Below, piece by piece: positions 36,321 to 46,311 of a DNA stretch of 64,000 nt. Location: the NCBI RefSeq assembly GCF_018882285.1, contig NZ_JACVOT010000001.1, positions 186,001-250,000 on the forward strand, written 5' to 3'. Position 1 is the first letter of the stretch. Every line of letters starts with the position of its first letter. The stretch comes from Polynucleobacter sp. AM-26B4. Lineage in GTDB: Bacteria; Pseudomonadota; Gammaproteobacteria; Burkholderiales; Burkholderiaceae. The notes below the pieces were generated by a model, which saw only the letters and a program-made list of their open reading frames with translations, was not told the DNA's origin and ran no database searches. A program made the position numbers and the translations under genes.

Positions 36321-38150
36321 TTAAGCCGCTGTTTCGCGACTTGCCTTCTTACGCTCATGCTCTTTCAAGTAGCGCTTACGGATACGGATGCTCTTCGGAG
36401 TCACTTCAACCAACTCGTCTTCTGCAATGAATTCAACCGCATACTCCAAAGACATTTGAATCGCTGGCACCAGACGCACAGCTTCATCAGTACCTGAGGC
36501 ACGCACGTTGGTTAATTGCTTACCTTTGATCGGATTCACAATTAAGTCATTATCACGGCTGTGAATACCAATCACCATACCTTCGTAAAGTGCATCACCA
36601 GGAACCACAAACATGCGGCCGCGATCTTGCAATTTCCACAAAGCGTAAGCAACTGCTTCACCATCGTCTTGAGAAATCAACACACCATTGTGACGCTCAC
36701 CAACCATGCCCTCTTTCATTGGGCCATAAGCATCAAATGTATGACTCATCAAACCAGTTCCGCGAGTCATTGTTAAGAAGTCGCCTTGGAAACCAATCAA
36801 GCCACGCGCTGGGATTCTGTACTCAAGACGTGTACGGCCTTTGCCGTCTGACACCATGTCTTGCAACTCACCCTTACGTTTGCCCAATTCTTCCATCACA
36901 CCACCCTGAGTAGTGTCTTCAACGTCCACCGTTAAGTTTTCATATGGCTCAGTTTTAACGCCATTCTCTTCATGGAAAACCACGCGAGGACGAGAAACTG
37001 CAAGCTCGTAACCTTCACGACGCATGTTTTCAATCAAAATAGTTAAATGCAATTCACCACGGCCTGAAACTTCAAATACAGTGTCATCATCTGTATCACT
37101 CACGCGCAAAGCCATGTTTGACTTTAGCTCGCGTTGCAAACGATCACGAATCTGACGGCTGGTAATGAATTTACCTTCACGTCCAGCCAATGGGCTGGTG
37201 TTAACCATGAAGTTCATGGTTAGAGTTGGCTCATCCACCTTCAACATCGGCAATGGATCAACTTTGTCTGGTGCACACACTGTTGTACCAATCGCTAAAT
37301 CTTCGATACCGTTGATCAAAACGATATCGCCAGAAGCGGCTTGCTCAACTTGAACGCGCTCAAGACCTTGGAACTTAAGCACTTGGTTAACACGACCATT
37401 GAATGGTGTGCCATCTGGACCATTTTGGCAAACAACTGATTGGCCAGCTTTAACAGTACCGCGGCTGATACGACCCACACCAATTTTTCCAACATAGCTG
37501 TTGTAATCAATTGAGGAAATTTGGAATTGCAAAGGACCGTCTGGATCTTCGTCACGAATCGGTACATATTTCAAGACTGTTTCAAACAAAGGAGCCATGG
37601 TTCCTTCGCGTACTTCAGGTGTCAAACCTGCGTAACCAGCCAAACCAGATGCGTAAACAACTGGGAAATCCAACTGCTCTTCAGTCGCACCTAATTTATC
37701 AAATAGTTCAAATGTTGCATTCACAACGTAATCAATACGTGCACCTGGACGGTCCACTTTGTTAACCACCACGATTGGCTTCAAGCCAAGTGCCAAAGCT
37801 TTCTTTGTCACAAAACGTGTTTGTGGCATTGGGCCTTCAACAGCATCAACCAATAGCAACACACCATCAACCATCGATAGAACGCGCTCAACTTCACCAC
37901 CGAAGTCTGCGTGTCCTGGAGTGTCAACGATATTGATATGAGTACCTTCATATTCAACCGCACAGTTTTTAGACAAGATCGTGATGCCACGTTCTTTTTC
38001 AATATCATTTGAGTCCATCACACGTTCAGCAACCTGTTGGTTGTCACGGAATGTGCCTGATTGACGAAGTAGTTGATCCACCAAGGTTGTTTTACCGTGG
38101 TCAACGTGGGCAATGATGGCGATGTTTCTTAAGGCGCGAATATTACTCAT
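36321..38150 (-). CDS. typA: Ribosome-associated GTPase TypA/BipA
   Basis: Translational GTPase for stress and 50S assembly, 609 residues. G1 [22 protein letters not shown]2/switch [10 protein letters not shown]3 [15 protein letters not shown]4 [11 protein letters not shown]. The C-terminal BipA-specific region has [25 protein letters not shown] and [18 protein letters not shown]. Last gene of the rimP operon, 20 bases after truB. Confidence 0.97.
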
Positions 38151-38169
38151 GGTTCTGCTTTCACTTTTT

Positions 38170-39117
38170 TCAATTGGTTAAATTCGTTACTGCTGCTGCT
38201 TGGGCAATCAAACGACGTGGGTGTAATACACCCTTGCGCCAGTCTGCGGTACCCATAAAATTACAAGATTCAATCGTGCCGCGATAAATCCTCATTAACT
38301 CTTCATTACTACCCGCTTTACTGACTGGGACTCTTTGCCCAAGACGCAAGCGATCTGCCTCTTCATTTGTAAGCCCCAATGAGTTGAGGTCTTGTACGAG
38401 AGCATCCACTGGCAGCAAATACTCAGGCTTGATATTGTTGTCTTGATGATTATTTTTAACGGTTTCTAAGGTAACGCCATGACCTAAACTCAAATGGCCC
38501 ACCTTTTCTCGGCGCAAGCCAATCAAATGAGCACCAGCGCCTAAATAATCACCAATATCCTCAGCCAAGGTTCTGACATACGTTCCTTTGCTGCATGAAA
38601 CTTCTAATTGAGCCACTGGCCATGACACATCCACCCATTTCAATGAATGAATCGTGATCATTCTTGCTTCTCGCTCCAATGTCTCACCTGCGCGGGCATA
38701 TTCATACAAAGGCTTACCATCACGCTTTAAGGCTGAATACATCGGAGGAATCTGTGCAATTTCACCTGTGAACTTCAACGCCACTTCAGCTAATTTTTCT
38801 TGCAAAAGATAGGCATCAGTCACATCAAAATTAGCTTCTTTAACTTCAATCACTTCACCCTCTGCATCACCTGTAGAGGTTTTCTCACCAAACTTGATGG
38901 TTGCTAAATAAGTTTTATCTGCATCCAACAAATCTTGCGAATATTTTGTTGCTTCACCCAAACATACCGGCAATAAACCAGTGGCCATAGGATCCAAAGT
39001 GCCCGTATGTCCAGCCTTGTCTGCATCAAATGCTCGTTTGACAATCGTGACTGCAGTTTGTGAGCTGATTCCTTCTGGCTTATCCAGAAGAACCACCCCG
39101 TGAATACCTTGGGGCAT
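38170..39117 (-). CDS. truB: tRNA pseudouridine(55) synthase TruB
   Basis: Makes psi55 in the T-loop. 315 residues: GVVLLDKPEGISSQTAV, catalytic GHTGTLDPMATGLLPVCLGEATK with the aspartate, PPMYSALKRDGKPLYEYARAG, and CSKGTYVRTLAEDIGDYLGAGAHL. Start 2 bases after the rbfA stop. Confidence 0.97.
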   Translation of the reverse strand: MPQGIHGVVLLDKPEGISSQTAVTIVKRAFDADKAGHTGTLDPMATGLLPVCLGEATKYSQDLLDADKTYLATIKFGEKTSTGDAEGEVIEVKEANFDVTDAYLLQEKLAEVALKFTGEIAQIPPMYSALKRDGKPLYEYARAGETLEREARMITIHSLKWVDVSWPVAQLEVSCSKGTYVRTLAEDIGDYLGAGAHLIGLRREKVGHLSLGHGVTLETVKNNHQDNNIKPEYLLPVDALVQDLNSLGLTNEEADRLRLGQRVPVSKAGSNEELMRIYRGTIESCNFMGTADWRKGVLHPRRLIAQAAAVTNLTN

Positions 39118-39119
39118 GA

Positions 39120-39473
39120 TTAAGCCTTATCGTCGCGCAGCGCTTGATCTATTAAACGTGACATTTCAACGCCACGAGCCACAGATTCATCATGATGAAA
39201 ATGCAAGGTCGGGACTGTGTGAATATGTAAACGCTTGAACAGCAATGAATGTAAATAACCAGCTTTTTCACGCAAAGCAGCCAAAGCATTCTCCGGCTCA
39301 GCTCCAAGAACTGTGAAGAATATTTTTGCGTGCGCCATGTCAGTCGTTAACTCAACAGCCTGCAAGGTAATCAACCCAACTTTGGGATCACGAATCTCGC
39401 GCGGAATGAGCTCGGCCAAATCCCTTTGGATTTGGTCGGCCACTCGTTGATTACGATGATTTTTAACTGGCAT
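39120..39473 (-). CDS. rbfA: 30S ribosome-binding factor RbfA
   Basis: 117-residue KH-like cold-shock 16S maturation factor. [48 protein letters not shown] and the end [23 protein letters not shown] are typical. Between infB and truB. Confidence 0.96.
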
Positions 39474-39492
39474 GTTTTTTTATTTAAAGCTA

Positions 39493-42264
39493 TTAAAGCG
39501 TTCTTGCCACTTCTGTAACTTCAAATATTTCTAGTTGATCGCCCTCATGGATGTCGTTGTGATTTTTGAGAGATAAACCGCACTCAAAACCACCCTTCAC
39601 CTCTTTGACGTCATCTTTGAAGCGCTTCAATGAATCCAATTCGCCAGTCCAAACTACCACGTTGTTGCGCAATAAACGTGCGCGTGATGATCGCTTGACG
39701 ATACCTTCAAGAACCATACAACCAGCAACAGAACCAACTTTAGATACTTGGATCACTTGACGGATTTCAACCAAGCCTGTGATTTCTTCTTTCTTCTCTG
39801 GCGTCAACATACCGCTCATCGCAGCTTTCACTTCATCAACAGCATCGTAGATGATGTTGTAGTAACGAATATCTACGCCATTGGCTTCAGCCAACTTGCG
39901 AGCCAATGCATCAGCACGAGAATTGAATCCAATCACCACAGCTTTAGAAGCTACGGCTAAGTTGATATCAGTTTCAGTGATGCCACCAACCGCTGCGTGA
40001 ACAATCACAACCTTGACCTCGGCTGTTGAAAGCTTTTGTAATGACTGTGACAAAGCTTCTTGAGAACCTTGAACGTCTGCCTTGATAATGATTGGCAAGT
40101 TCTTGGCTTCAACGCTGCCTTCACCCATGTTTTCAAACATGCTTTCAAGTTTCACAGCCTGCTGTTTCGCCAACTTCACATCACGGAATTTACCTTGACG
40201 GAACAAAGCGATTTCACGAGCTTTGCGCTCATCAGCAACTGCAATGACCTCTTCCCCGGCTGCCGGGACTTCTGATAGACCTTGAATCTCAACTGGGATT
40301 GATGGGCCAGCCTCATTACAAGGCTTACCGTTTTCATCCAACATGGCGCGAACACGACCAAAAGATGAACCCGCCAAGATCATGTCGCCACGACGCAAAG
40401 TACCTGATTGAACCAAGATAGTTGCAACTGGTCCCTTACCTTTATCAAGGCGAGCTTCAATCACTAGACCTTTGGCAGCTGCATCCTTAGGAGCTTTAAG
40501 TTCGAGAACTTCAGCTTGTAGTAAAACGTTTTCTAAAAGCTCATCAATACCCGCGCCAGTTTTAGCTGACACATGAATGAACGGTGAATCACCACCGTAC
40601 TCTTCAGGCACAACGCTTTCAGCAACCAATTCTTGTTTCACACGATCGGGATTGGCATCTGGCTTATCAATTTTGTTGATTGCAACAACCAATGGAACGC
40701 CCGCAGCCTTAGCATGGGCAATCGCCTCTTTCGTTTGCGGCATCACGCCGTCATCGGCAGCCACCACCAAAATAACAATGTCAGTCGCTTGAGCACCACG
40801 GGCACGCATCGCCGTAAAGGCTTCGTGACCCGGTGTATCCAAGAATGTGATCATGCCACGTGGAGTTTCTACGTGATAAGCACCAATGTGCTGGGTAATA
40901 CCACCCGCTTCACCTGATGCCACCTTGGCACGGCGAATAGAATCCAATAAAGATGTTTTACCGTGGTCAACGTGGCCCATCACAGTGACCACTGGTGGTC
41001 TTGTGATTAACTCAGCATCATGCGCTTCGGTTGATAGATCTGTGTCTGGCTCATCTAACTTAGCAGCAAAAGCTTTATGACCCATTTCTTCAACGATGAT
41101 CATCGCTGTGTCTTGGTCTAAAACTTGGTTGATGGTGACCATCTGGCCCATACCCATCAGCAACTTGATCACTTCTGCGGCTTTTACTGACATCTTGTGA
41201 GCCAATTCTGAAACAGTGATTGTTTCTGGAATATGAACATCTCTCACAACTGGCTCAGTAGGTGCTACGAAGTTAGTTGGAACATCAGAAGCTTGCTGTT
41301 GATTTTTTCTTCTGCCACCACCCGTGCGCCAGTTACCTGATCCACCGGTTGTGTCACCGCGAGTTTTTAATCCACCAGCACGCTTCTTACCATCTTCTTG
41401 CCAAGTCGATGATGACTCAGTTGATTTAATGGTCTTCGCACCTGGTTTAACTTTATCTTTCTTCTTATCATCTGCACCCTCAGCCTTAACTGGCTTGTGA
41501 AGAGTGCCCTTCTTTTCTTCTTCCGGTGGTTTGGCAGCCTTAAGAACTCTGGCTGGGGCATTCATCATGTCACGAATTGCTAAGGCTTCAGCTTCAGCCT
41601 TGGCGCGACGCACACGAATGCTTTCCAATTCATCATCACGAACTTTGGCAGCTGCAGTGGCCGCTACCTTTTCTTTTTCTTCGCTCTCAGCCTTGGCTTT
41701 ATCTTCTTCAGCGCTTGTTTTTTCTTTCTTATCACCTTTTGCAGCTTTTGTTTTTGCTGCAGCTTTTTCAGATTCTTCGCGAGCTTTGCGATCCATCTCA
41801 GCTTGCATATCAGCTTCTTGACGAGCTAATAATTCGGCTTGACGCTTGGCTTCAGCTTCACGCTTTGCTAACTCAGCATCATCCAAAATGCTGGCTGGTG
41901 CAGCTTCTGCTGAAACCTTTGCCGGCTTTTCAATCTCTGGTGCTGGCTCTGCAGCAGCAGATTCATCACGCTTGACCAGTACGCGCTTCTTACGAACCTC
42001 GACTTGAACAGTGCGAGTTTTGCCAGCAGAGTCTGCCTGGCGAATCTCAGTAGTTTCACGCTTGGTTAAAGTAATTTTTTTGCGTGCAGCAGTATCCGAA
42101 CCATGAGCCACTTGCAAATGCTCAAGCAATTTCGTTTTATCTTTTTCAGTCAGCTTATCTTCCGCTGCTGTTTTATTAATTCCGGCAGCCTGAAGCTGCT
42201 CCAGCAATGCTGCTGGAGTGCGCTTCAGTTCTTTTGCCAAATCTTCTACGGTCGTGGTCGCCAT
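39493..42264 (-). CDS. infB: Translation initiation factor IF-2
   Basis: 923 residues. N-terminal IF2-N module (about 1-50, [23 protein letters not shown]), then a low-complexity Ala/Lys/Glu linker (about 100-330) with a Gly/Arg patch. A second IF2-N-like domain (about 345-395) comes before the GTPase: [52 protein letters not shown]-terminal fMet-tRNA domains finish at VARTL. Codes in the standard order nusA-infB-rbfA. Internal in-frame starts could give short isoforms as in E. coli, but I cannot point to one. Confidence 0.98.
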
Positions 42265-42280
42265 GCGAACCCCTTATGAA

Positions 42281-43756
42281 TCAGTTAAACCAGTGTGCAC
42301 GAGCTTTCATAATGAGAGCTTTTGCGTCTTCTTCGTTGATGCCAGTCATTTCAACTAACTCATCAACAGCCAATTCCGCTAGGTCATCACGGGTATGGAC
42401 ATTACCTTCTGCCAATTTGGCAACAAGATTCGTAGTCATACCTTCTAAGCTACGTAGATCTTGCGATACCTCTTCAACACGCTCTTCTTTTGCCAACTCC
42501 ATCGTTAACAACGAGTCACGTGCGCGAGTACGCAATTCATTCACCGTATCTTCATCAAATGCATCAATTTCTAGCATTTCTGACAAAGGCACGTATGCAA
42601 CTTCTTCCAAACTATTGAAGCCTTCTTCAATCAAAATGTCCGCAACTTCTTGGTCCACGTCCAACTTATCCATGAACAAGGCGCGTACTTTTTCTGATTC
42701 TTCTTCAGTCTTCTGAGCAGACTCTTCAGGAGTCATGATGTTGATGTGCCATCCAGTCAATTCACTCGCCAAACGCACGTTTTGACCACTGCGGCCAATA
42801 GCGATTGCCAAGTTTTCCTCATCAACCACCACATCCATCGCATGCTTCTCTTCGTCCACCATGATTGATTGAACTTGAGCAGGCGCTAAGGCACCGATCA
42901 CAAATTGCGCTGGATCTTCAGACCACAAAACAATATCAACTGCTTCGCCAGCAACTTCATTACGAACCGCTGTCACGCGTGTGCCACGCACACCTACACA
43001 TGTACCAATTGGGTCAATGCGCTTGTCGTGTGCAACAACAGCGATCTTTGCACGGATACCAGGATCACGAGCGGCGCCCTTGATCTCCAATAAACCTTGC
43101 TCCATTTCAGGAACCTCATTCTCAAACAACTTGATCAAGAAATCAGGGGCTGTTCTTGATAGTTCAATCTGAGGACCGCGAGCTTCACGATCTACTTTCA
43201 AAATGAAACCACGCACGCGATCACCGCTGCGCAAGTTTTCTTTTGGAATCATTTGATCGCGACGCAATAAAGCTTCTACACGACCAGATTCAATGATCAA
43301 ACCATTCTTATCAGCACGCTTCACTGTGCCGGTCATGACGTTTTCGCCACGCTCTAAATAGTCATTCAAAATCTGCTCACGCTCAGCATCACGAATACGC
43401 TGCAAGATCACTTGCTTAGCTGTTTGTGCGCCAATACGTCCAAAAGCAACGGACTCAACTTGCTCTTCAATGAAATCACCGATTTCAATGTCAGCAATTT
43501 GTTCTTTCGCTTCAAATGAAAGAATCTCTTTGTCTGGCTCTTGCAGACCTGCTTCATCAGGCACAACTAACCAACGACGATATGTTTCATATTCGCCAGT
43601 GTTGCGATCAATGGCAACGCGAATATCCACATCTTCTTCGTAACGTTTCTTACTTGCAGAGGCCAAGGCCATCTCAAGTGCTTCGAATACGATATCTCGT
43701 TCAACGTTTTTCTCGCGTGCTAAAGCGTCAGCTAGCATGAGGACTTCACGACTCAT
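42281..43756 (-). CDS. nusA: Transcription termination/antitermination factor NusA
   Basis: 491 residues. N-terminal RNA-polymerase domain, S1 domain (about 135-200, [19 protein letters not shown]), KH1/KH2 (about 205-345, [24 protein letters not shown] and [18 protein letters not shown]), then two acidic AR repeats (about 360-490) that contact the alpha subunit C-terminal domain, as in gamma- and beta-proteobacteria. The start overlaps rimP by ATGA. The leader of this operon contains a terminator-like hairpin that could be a NusA-responsive attenuator. Confidence 0.98.
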
Positions 43757-44247
43757 GATTTTCTTCCTTTGAAATCAACTACGGGAACCAACCGAGTTTT
43801 TTCAACCTCGGCCAGAGTAAATTCAAACATTGCCTCGCTGCCATCTGTGTTTTTAATTAACAGACCCAACTTGGCATCAACAGAATCAGCGTCACCACTG
43901 ATCAAGCCATGCAAAACACCTACATAATTCTTTCGGCCAGCATGTGCGACGCGTAATTTAACGTTTGCTTCCAAACCCATGAATCGGATATGGTCAGCAA
44001 CTGTTTTCACAGGTCGATCCAAGCCTGGTGAAGAAACTTCCAATCGATCGTAGTTAACGTTATCTACAGGCAAGCTGTAATTCAGATGACGACTCACTTT
44101 TTCACAATCAGTAATATCGATTGGGCGCTCATAATCAACATTTTCAATCGTGACGCGCAATAAGCCACGACCTTCTCGCTCAATATCAACGAGTAGGTAA
44201 CCTAGGCTCTTCAGAGCATCAGCAATCAAAACTTGTTCGTTCGCCAT
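43753..44247 (-). CDS. rimP: Ribosome maturation factor RimP
   Basis: 164-residue 30S assembly factor. [63 protein letters not shown] and the C-terminal SH3-like part are typical. First gene of rimP-nusA-infB-rbfA-truB-typA. Confidence 0.96.
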
Positions 44248-44270
44248 CGACTATTACGTTTTCTTTCACC

Positions 44271-44295
44271 AAAAAAAAATGGGCATATAGCCCAT
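44271..44295 (-). terminator. Terminator-like attenuator in the rimP-nusA leader
   Basis: On the reverse strand ATGGGC (44295-44290), a TATAT loop and GCCCAT (44284-44279) are followed by a run of nine T bases (44279-44271). It lies 24 bases before the rimP ATG and about 65-90 bases after the predicted start point. An upstream GGGCAT (44320-44315) could pair with ATGCCC (44286-44281) instead, which would disrupt the stem. Confidence 0.75.
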
Positions 44296-44365
44296 ATTCC
44301 TAAACAAAAAGAACATGCCCGACCTACGTTGAACGCAACTTTAGCCGGAACTACTAAACAATTGA

Positions 44366-44394
44366 ATTATATAAGAACTTGCCTACCCTGCCAA
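44366..44394 (-). promoter_or_regulatory. Near-consensus sigma-70 promoter of the rimP-nusA operon
   Basis: TTGGCA (44394-44389) and TATAAT (44371-44366) are 17 bases apart on the reverse strand, 28 bases after the rluB stop. The predicted start near 44359 leaves a leader of about 112 bases that contains the attenuator. Confidence 0.75.
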
Positions 44395-44421: not shown

Positions 44422-46311
44422 TTAACTGGGTTTTGAGAATTTTTTACCAAATTTACCCCCAGGTTTGCCACCTGGAGAGCGATTTTGACCCTGACCAGAG
44501 CGAGAACCGCCCTGACCTGGACCTTTTTTTCCGAATTTTTGACCAGAACGAGGTTTATCAGCGCCACTGCCAAATGCACTACCGTGGTGCACGCCAGCTT
44601 GACTATCCTCATCACGACGTTGCCCAAAACCTCCTGAGCGACCGCCTTGACCTGGCTTGCCTTGGCCAGGTTTACCACCTTGACCCGGTTTACCTCTTCC
44701 ACCACCATTATTACTGCCCTTATATCTGCCGCCACGATCATCTGCATGACCTTGAGCAAAACGGTTGGTGTTGGATGCTTGTCTTAATGCATCCTTAGAA
44801 CCCCAATAAGAAACGGAGGTTTGCATTGGATCAGGTTGACCGCCACTGTGTTCACGTGGAGCACGGTTACCGCCTTCACGTGGGTCACGGCGTGATTTCT
44901 CACCCATGCCCTGAGGAACTTTCAAGCCAGCCATCTTCATGAGTTGCACAATTTGATCAGATGGAACTTCTTCCCAGCGACCACGACGCAATCTTGGAGG
45001 CAAAACAAATAAGCCATAACGTGTTCGAATCAAACGAGACACAATGTGTCCAACGGCTTCAAACATACGGCGAACCTCACGGTTACGACCTTCTGTTAAA
45101 GCCACGTGATACCAACGATTAGCACCTTCTCCGCCGCCACTGACCAAGCGCAAGAACTTAGCGACACCGTCATCTAAATTAATACCTGTTTTTAAGAGCT
45201 TTTCTTGCTCGGGCTCTAAATCACCCAAAATACGTGCCGCGTATTCACGCTCAACACCATAACGAGGGTGCATCAAACGGTTCGCTAACTCACCAGAGGT
45301 GGTGAATAACAACAAGCCTTCAGTATTAAAGTCCAAACGACCCACTGCGATCCAACGACCTTGTTTGGCTTTTGGCAAGCGATCAAACACAGTTGGACGA
45401 CCTTCAGGATCAGACTGACTAACAATCTCGCCGGCTGGCTTGTGATAAAGAATCACGCGCGGTGGTTTTGTTTGAATCTTGCGATGAACCATCTTGCCAT
45501 TGATTTTGACTTGATCCGTTGGTCCAACACGTTGACCAATGTGCGCCGGCATACTGTTCACAGAAACACGACCCTGAATGATCAGGTCTTCCATGTCACG
45601 GCGAGAGCCCATACCAGCATCAGCTAAAACCTTGTGCAACTTAACAGTGTCTTCGTCGAAACCTTCTTCATCAACATCATCAAGATCAGACCAAACTTCA
45701 TCACGCAAACTTAATGGCAGTTCATCAACACTAGAGAACTGCAAACCTGGCATTGCATCTTCTTCAGCTTGCGCTTCTTTTGTTTCTGATTCAGATGAGT
45801 GAGACTCAGTCTCTAACTCAGCCAATGTCTGAGCAACCATGTCATGGGTTACCTCAGTCTCGACTTCTGGCGTATCCAAGCTTGCATCAAACTCTCCAGA
45901 AACCACAGATGCGAACAACGCTTGGCTTTCTTCGCTGACTGGACTGGCTTTGGGTTCTTGATGTCGTGATGGGTGATTTGTTCTTTCACCTCGCTCACCG
46001 TTATTACCTTTGTTTCTAGGACCTCTGGCAAATTTATCACCACGATCACCTCTTGGAGGGCGCGGTCCACGAGGAGGTCTTGCTGCTGACTCACCCTCAC
46101 CTGCAGGTTCTTCACCCGAACTTGCTTGAGTCCCTTGATTTTCTCCTGCAGGCTGATCACCAGTAGGTGCATTTTCATCGCGTGGACGTCTGCCACGGCC
46201 CTTGTTGTAGGGGCTGCGACTGGTTCTTTTTGGTCGAGTCTCGCTATTTTCACCAGCCTCTTGCCCATCCATCTTGGCAGGCTGTTCAGATTCAAATTCA
46301 GGACTAGTCAT
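44422..46311 (-). CDS. rluB: RluB-type 23S rRNA pseudouridine synthase with disordered tails
   Basis: 629 residues, about twice the core size. The middle (about 225-470) has an S4 domain [28 protein letters not shown] and the catalytic part [38 protein letters not shown]. The N-terminal 220 residues are Pro/Arg/Gly- and Glu-rich. The C-terminal 130 are Gly/Gln/Lys-rich with repeated GKPGQG units. Both ends look disordered and RNA-binding. I chose ATG 46311, overlapping the scpB stop by 8 bases; an in-frame start 17 codons earlier lies within scpB. RluB rather than RluE/F is inferred from the synteny with scpB. Confidence 0.9.

Follow-up and report, generated by a model that had tools for sequence, protein, structure and literature searches.

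What does an intrinsic terminator do between the promoter of the rimP-nusA-infB operon and its first gene? The question is raised by a 64,000-nt stretch, here called the window, of the genome (1.67 Mb) of the freshwater bacterium Polynucleobacter sp. AM-26B4; the genes behind the stop serve the ribosome and transcription and are essential. With moderate confidence, the leader is read as a rimP-leader transcription attenuator in the form that it takes in Polynucleobacter, one in which NusA most likely sets the fraction of transcripts that stop. The features concerned are, in the order of transcription:

44366..44394, minus strand: sigma-70 type promoter TTGGCA-N17-TATAAT, 11 of 12 consensus bases (-35 TTGGCA at 44394-44389, -10 TATAAT at 44371-44366, spacer 17)
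44319..44348, minus strand: H1, an imperfect hairpin CCGGCU-AAA-GUUG-CGUU-CAAC-GUA-GGUCGG of 30 nt, kept among relatives
44315..44320, minus strand: GGGCAT, the putative antiterminator strand of the initial annotation, overlapping the last two H1 bases; subclade-specific
44296..44314, minus strand: H2, a hairpin GUUCU/GGAAU that abuts the terminator stem and whose 3' arm doubles as an A-tract
44279..44295, minus strand: terminator hairpin AUGGGC-UAUAU-GCCCAU, the rimP-leader motif (stem arms 44295-44290 with 44284-44279, loop of 5)
44271..44279, minus strand: nine-T run (U tract), its first T being the last stem base
43753..44247, minus strand: rimP, first gene of the operon, ATG at 44247 (NCBIfam)
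42281..43756, minus strand: nusA, presumed source of the feedback regulator (NCBIfam)
36321..42264, minus strand: infB, rbfA, truB and typA, the remaining operon genes (NCBIfam)

The promoter (44394-44366) has the sequence that the initial annotation gave it, and the terminator with its nine-T run (44295-44271) does lie between promoter and rimP. The stop sits shortly ahead of the gene, as described, with 23 rather than 24 bases between the end of the T run at 44271 and the ATG. NCBIfam models name the downstream genes RimP, NusA, IF-2, RbfA, TruB and TypA; these are the six genes first listed as translation genes, a label that does not suit nusA, a transcription factor gene. Upstream on the same strand lies rluB, in a frame that ends at 44422 and whose best NCBIfam model, RluB, scores just below the cut-off (287.1 versus 290 bits). 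Because of the promoter spacing, the transcript is predicted to start at about 44359. No clear Shine-Dalgarno sequence is seen close to the rimP ATG in 44247-44270, and many main-clade leaders carry AAGGGG-like bases ahead of a GTG start.

At lax thresholds neither element exceeds expectation in 2 kb (two promoter-like sites versus 2.5 in shuffles; two terminator-like sites versus 1.9). Under strict criteria, this promoter is the sole match in 64 kb with at least 11 of 12 consensus bases and a spacer of 16-18, and this terminator is the sole hairpin with a stem of at least five pairs, at least four G-C pairs, a loop of 3-8 and then at least eight T. The predicted fold of the 113-nt leader has an energy of -30.1 kcal/mol (z -2.87), and one of 200 shuffles did as well. 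In 87 of the 93 distinct upstream regions of relatives, TATAAT lies no more than 140 bases ahead of the element; TTGGCA stands at the right spacing in 12 of those 87, all from the window's subclade. RimP is 93-99% identical in ten Polynucleobacter loci of named records, including P. cosmopolitanus (98%), and 43 and 38% identical in the two remaining loci, which belong to far relatives.

The stop is far more widespread than the genus. A script that required a T run, so that the T run itself is no evidence in these counts, found the GGGC...GCCC core in 30/30, 12/12, 17/18 and 23/28 leaders of four rimP-leader sets, and the core is visible in two more of the 28 (L171, L187), for a total of 84/88 rimP leaders across the order. 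A search of 300 order genomes for the exact pattern ATGGGC-N3-9-GCCCATTTTTT found it in 178, from 94 of 134 genera; as the matches were read, nine genomes have more than one, and the reversed-pattern control gave none among the matches listed. In 29 of 30 exact-pattern loci examined out of all matches (some from genomes already seen, the window's own included), a RimP frame follows on the same strand. In the other, L153, the site is present and the locus contains no RimP frame. Thirty order genomes lacking the exact pattern yielded a RimP match in 28, of which 25 have GGGC...GCCC and a T run; L186 has no such hairpin within 200 bases. The sets of 12 and 18 among the four are leaders from the genus and from other genera, respectively, and 29 of these 30 have the stop; the 12 were picked for no, weak or divergent match to R1, the covariance model of the Polynucleobacter leader described below; the thirtieth, L108, has a different stem and T run.

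Several stems have changed on both sides, to GTGGGC/GCCCAC (L015, L164, L170), AAGGGC/GCCCTT (L094), ATGGCC/GGCCAT (L173) and GTGAGC/GCTCAC (L184). The spacing from GGGC to GCCC ranges from 4 to 16 among leaders, which suits an RNA hairpin better than a protein operator, and the operator reading of the inverted repeat was set aside on this ground.

The hairpin could merely end rluB (scpB-rluB) transcripts and shield the rimP operon from read-through, and rluB does lie upstream on the same strand, both in the window and in 80 of the 117 loci compared (which include some genomes twice; the other 37 include short contigs and loci ambiguous in G+C-rich DNA). This role is nonetheless very unlikely. 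The hairpin is downstream of the operon promoter, it stands next to a RimP frame in nearly every exact-pattern locus examined, and loci with an oppositely oriented upstream gene still have it. Among ten opposite-strand upstream frames scanned, eight belong to a Pfam family, namely ThiC (L106), AMP-binding (L131, L164, L174, L180) and others (L167, L169, L173), and two (L171, L162) gave none; the stop is kept in all eight Pfam-backed loci, in L173 in its compensated form. A plain rluB terminator is thus rejected, in line with the doubt that the initial annotation had voiced. Its main proposal, an attenuator-type terminator between the promoter and rimP-nusA-infB, is borne out by a stop that travels with rimP, not with the upstream gene.

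Such a stop has been described before. The rimP-leader of Naville and Gautheret (2010), presented as the most ubiquitous attenuator, with NusA as the best candidate effector, lies 5' of the rimP-nusA-infB operon and consists of a GGGC...GCCC stem followed by a U tract, as in the window; its terminators stand 4-130 nt before the start codon, a range that includes the window's 23 bases (PMC2965389). Its authors saw no larger conserved element save a tandem terminator in some Gammaproteobacteria, whereas the window adds H1 and H2 (PMC2965389). The tandem form, a second upstream terminator CCCg...cGGG with its own U tract, is absent from this leader: H1 resembles it in a C-rich 5' and a G-rich 3' arm, but no U tract follows directly. 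No Rfam family reaches its gathering score on the leader stretch. The terminator half of RF01770, the gammaproteobacterial rimP leader, aligns (UGGGCU...GCCC-U) at 20.3 bits (E 0.28), below the gathering score of 47 and with the upstream part unmatched.

NusA feedback through a leader stop has been argued for Escherichia coli (PMC2965389) and Streptococcus agalactiae (PMC4448216). A 2025 review states that Bacillus subtilis NusA is autoregulated by NusA-stimulated leader termination (PMC12288461), which agrees with the earlier remark that such autoregulation of nusA operons is known elsewhere. The window and the B. subtilis nusA operon are alike in having an intrinsic stop in the leader; the NusA effect reported for B. 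subtilis would operate in the same manner here. In E. coli, two terminators ahead of rimP, one ahead of rbfA and NusA control of the operon are described (PMC6511841). The S. agalactiae gbs0413-gbs0418 leader, in a distant bacterium, gives a short RNA and a long mRNA from one start, with an intrinsic stop before rimP-nusA-infB (PMC4448216). According to that account the start and the stop are only 31 nt apart, too close for an H1-H2 module.

By analogy with these systems, NusA feedback is a plausible mechanism for the Polynucleobacter operon, and the best one at hand. RNA polymerase would start near 44359, make H1 and H2, which would fold first, and then meet the GGGC...GCCC-U9 stop 23 bases ahead of rimP. 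Part of the polymerases would stop there and release an RNA of about 89 nt; the rest would go on to make the rimP-nusA-infB-rbfA-truB-typA mRNA. We infer termination at this site in the cell, and NusA, which promotes pausing and intrinsic termination, as the effector that most likely sets the stopped fraction and so would keep its own operon in check by negative feedback. Even without NusA, a six-pair stem followed by nine U may make an efficient stop. H2 probably tunes termination by keeping the A-tract from the U run, and H1 may serve as a spacer or as a site for a protein.

A conserved H1 and H2 ahead of the stop had not been described in the initial annotation. RimP was matched in 169 of 186 Polynucleobacter genomes, and the best 30 of the 169 all have H1, H2 and the terminator between a TATAAT-like box and rimP; a script that sought this shape found it once in each. 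R1, built from 20 distinct leader sequences, matched 163 of the 186 genus genomes, once each, and 40 of 299 family genomes, all Polynucleobacter (1 of 25 genera); no R1 match to the module was found in the other 24 sampled family genera, both searches using stricter filters that can lose weak matches. Nor was the module seen, by eye or by R1, in the 30 further leaders, except in G051. One genome, G037 (1.7 Mb, one contig, 99% complete), has neither a RimP nor an R1 match; it is the sole RimP miss among 144 good genus genomes, whether through loss, divergence or a masked stretch.

From 100 loci aligned to R1, 98 H1-H2 leaders were retained (93 genomes, five of them twice; 44 distinct), L081 and L088 being dropped as they match in the terminator only and lack H1 and H2. 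Standard pairing is found in 916 of 923 cells of this alignment (A2), which was fitted to the model itself, so that its pair counts lean towards the model. Two-sided changes among the 44 distinct leaders affect two outer pairs of H1 (18 and 3 sequences) and one terminator pair (one sequence), and none were found in the inner H1 stem or in H2. An earlier count that included L081 and L088 had seven two-sided pairs (0 of 500 shuffles); the count relied on here, three pairs, omits these rows, and the shuffle comparison belongs to the earlier count. With so few two-sided changes, the structure rests on sequence conservation more than on covariation.

The GUA side of the H1 internal loop is present in 44/44 distinct leaders, and the tip has nine types (CGAU in 27). 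A tip that varies over a constant GUA side points to the internal loop as a working part. Regulation of the stop might lie with another operon product or with a protein that binds RNA (RimP, IF2, ProQ or Hfq) and recognises H1 together with its internal loop. Among the RNAs associated with ProQ in enteric bacteria, a rimP leader is listed (PMC5391140), which together with the constant GUA side lends this proposal some appeal. It is still unlikely: H1 is absent from part of the genus and from the other genera read, where the stop persists, and the H1 core pattern, found in 159 of 186 genus genomes, occupies one place in 158 of them (the reversed control gave one match, in G072). A core at a single place per genome means no regulon, and an H1 regulon was rejected. 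The second copy, away from rimP at G091:C2:1170372-1170393, may be chance. When five H1 words were compared with the genome's own 16S stretch, GTTGCG and ACGTAGG alone occur there, once each.

Outside the main clade, a general 5' hairpin ahead of the stop was considered and dropped: over 27 leaders (L094 and L101 left out by the pattern, L108 not entered) the mean z is only -0.9, and the six leaders below -2 are all from Polynucleobacter genomes of 2.5-3.1 Mb. In L082-L089, from Polynucleobacter genomes of 2.5-3.2 Mb, a single hairpin near the predicted start replaces H1-H2, with z of -3.6 to -4.3 in L085-L089, -2.3 in L082, -0.5 in L083 and 0.0 in L084. The H1-H2 module would thus be a new part of an otherwise known attenuator, seen, among the genomes sampled, only in Polynucleobacter. 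No description of it was found in the main texts of the open-licence literature searched; in a 26-genome screen that reports Polynucleobacter motifs, the main text does not mention rimP, nusA or infB (PMC8632094).

The initial annotation had proposed a different partner for the terminator, with GGGCAT forming an antiterminator against its right arm. The two strands can indeed pair: GGGCAT at 44320-44315 is the exact complement of ATGCCC at 44286-44281, and a G-U pair and one further pair extend the match to eight pairs, GGGCATGT with ATATGCCC. A classical two-state attenuator built on GGGCAT(GT) and (AT)ATGCCC would also gain from the two bases that GGGCAT has in common with the H1 3' arm, so that H1 could gate the pairing, and from L015, which by reading has an eight-base Watson-Crick match. 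Of the 98 leaders, 14 keep GGGCAT (7 among the 44 distinct ones), namely those of L002-L015, whose RimP is 80-100% identical to the window's; 14 related, unchanged leaders count as one event, not fourteen. It is absent from the other 84 (37 distinct), which keep H1, H2 and the stop and, in the 37 distinct sequences, hold no Watson-Crick match longer than five to the loop and 3' arm. Relatives therefore do not keep both pairing options, and the pairing shows no compensatory change. In the window, the forced antiterminator (GGGCAUGU with AUAUGCCC) reaches -18.4 kcal/mol versus -24.1 for the terminator form, 5.7 kcal/mol weaker, and the terminator probability is 0.81-0.98 in the ten leaders listed.

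As a general mechanism the GGGCAT antiterminator was rejected on these 98 rows (93 genomes). Confined to one Polynucleobacter subclade, the pairing may be used there; from the leaders compared, it cannot be the general switch, and the two-state reading is distinctly improbable. There is no conserved strand that sequesters the terminator 3' arm. The leader agrees in this with the general rimP-leader, for which Naville and Gautheret likewise found no visible antiterminator (PMC2965389), the one candidate in the window being that of the subclade. H2 competes with the A-tract only.

The leaders do contain a conserved alternative pair other than GGGCAT, as two mutually exclusive options are open in 44/44 distinct sequences. 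The 3' arm of H2 (A/G-GAAU) doubles as an A-tract, which by pairing with the U run instead can extend the terminator; A-tracts ahead of terminators are common. H2 pairing is possible in every distinct leader, with one-sided changes only. Partial transcripts that end before the 3' arm form H2 in 44/44 and H1 in 43/44; at full length, 25 leaders have H2 plus terminator as their minimum and 19 have the A-tract:U form. These 19, in which H2 yields to the extended terminator, were counted against the favoured reading. Forced energies differ by a mean of 0.73 kcal/mol, with the H2 form lower in 21/44 and a range from 3.1 kcal/mol favouring H2 to 5.4 against; the values are for free RNA, and the U run sits in a hybrid when termination is decided.

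These folds invite a switch in which H2, formed first, hinders the final zipping of the terminator and favours read-through until a factor that opens H2 restores the full stop. The universal presence of both options, their close energies, the early formation of H2 and the split minimum are all consistent with it. It remains a doubtful proposal, given energies that describe free RNA where termination involves the hybrid, the gap of up to 5.4 kcal/mol in some leaders and the want of any two-sided change in H2. We infer a milder role for H2, that of tuning a stop set by NusA, with H1 as spacer or protein site.

A further proposal concerns the sequence right after H1. The window's own rRNA operon (L129) has in its 16S-23S spacer a long hairpin and then the boxA-like TGTTCTTTAAAAA, which we take to be boxA, and its 16S leader carries CTTCTTTAAAAA. 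The order in the spacer, a hairpin and then UGUUCUUUAAAAA, parallels that in the rimP leader, where UGUUCU directly follows H1. A Nus complex (NusB, S10, NusA) might accordingly load on the nusA leader. Bound to UGUUCU, it would unfold H2 and release the A-tract for pairing with the U run, and would in this way set read-through of the stop. The sequence after H1 is TGTTCTTTTTG in the window and TGTTCTGAA in the main clade; the window shares TGTTCTTT with the spacer, the main clade the six bases TGTTCT only. UGUUCU is also the 5' arm of H2, and L015 and L127 change the G of the boxA-like stretch. Six shared bases, a G broken in two leaders and an alternative explanation in H2 pairing make the boxA reading weak, and Nus loading here hardly to be expected. 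Were it true, the rimP-nusA-infB operon would draw on the same Nus factors as rRNA synthesis, in competition with it.

The Rfam comparisons touched on two other families. RF02420 (Burkholderia sRNA Bp1_Cand612_SIPHT, Bp1_162) matches five of 11 scanned rimP-leader loci at 58-117 bits, all from other genera of the family (L097, L098, L102, L103, L104) and each on the strand opposite to rimP. Its model begins with an A run, the complement of the T run. With its opposite-strand matches and leading A run, RF02420 most likely represents the rimP leader with the strands swapped. The original study gives RT-PCR support, and its main text does not mention rimP or nusA (PMC3521395); that result suggests transcription across the region in that species, on one strand or the other. 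The strand of RF02420 is thus a public annotation to mend. sX14 (RF02233), which scores weakly on the window, was dropped, without being refuted, as a possible mislabelled rimP leader: one sub-threshold match, with no RimP frame, was found in 274 class genomes, a sample not known to hold Xanthomonas.

NusA and IF2 are central factors, and feedback on their operon has been reported in distant bacteria. That the GGGC...GCCC stop hardly varies across the order suggests a control that is old and specific to the sequence, beyond what plain termination accounts for. The genus-specific module offers a natural experiment, in which sister clades carry the stop alone, the stop with one hairpin, or the stop with H1 plus H2.
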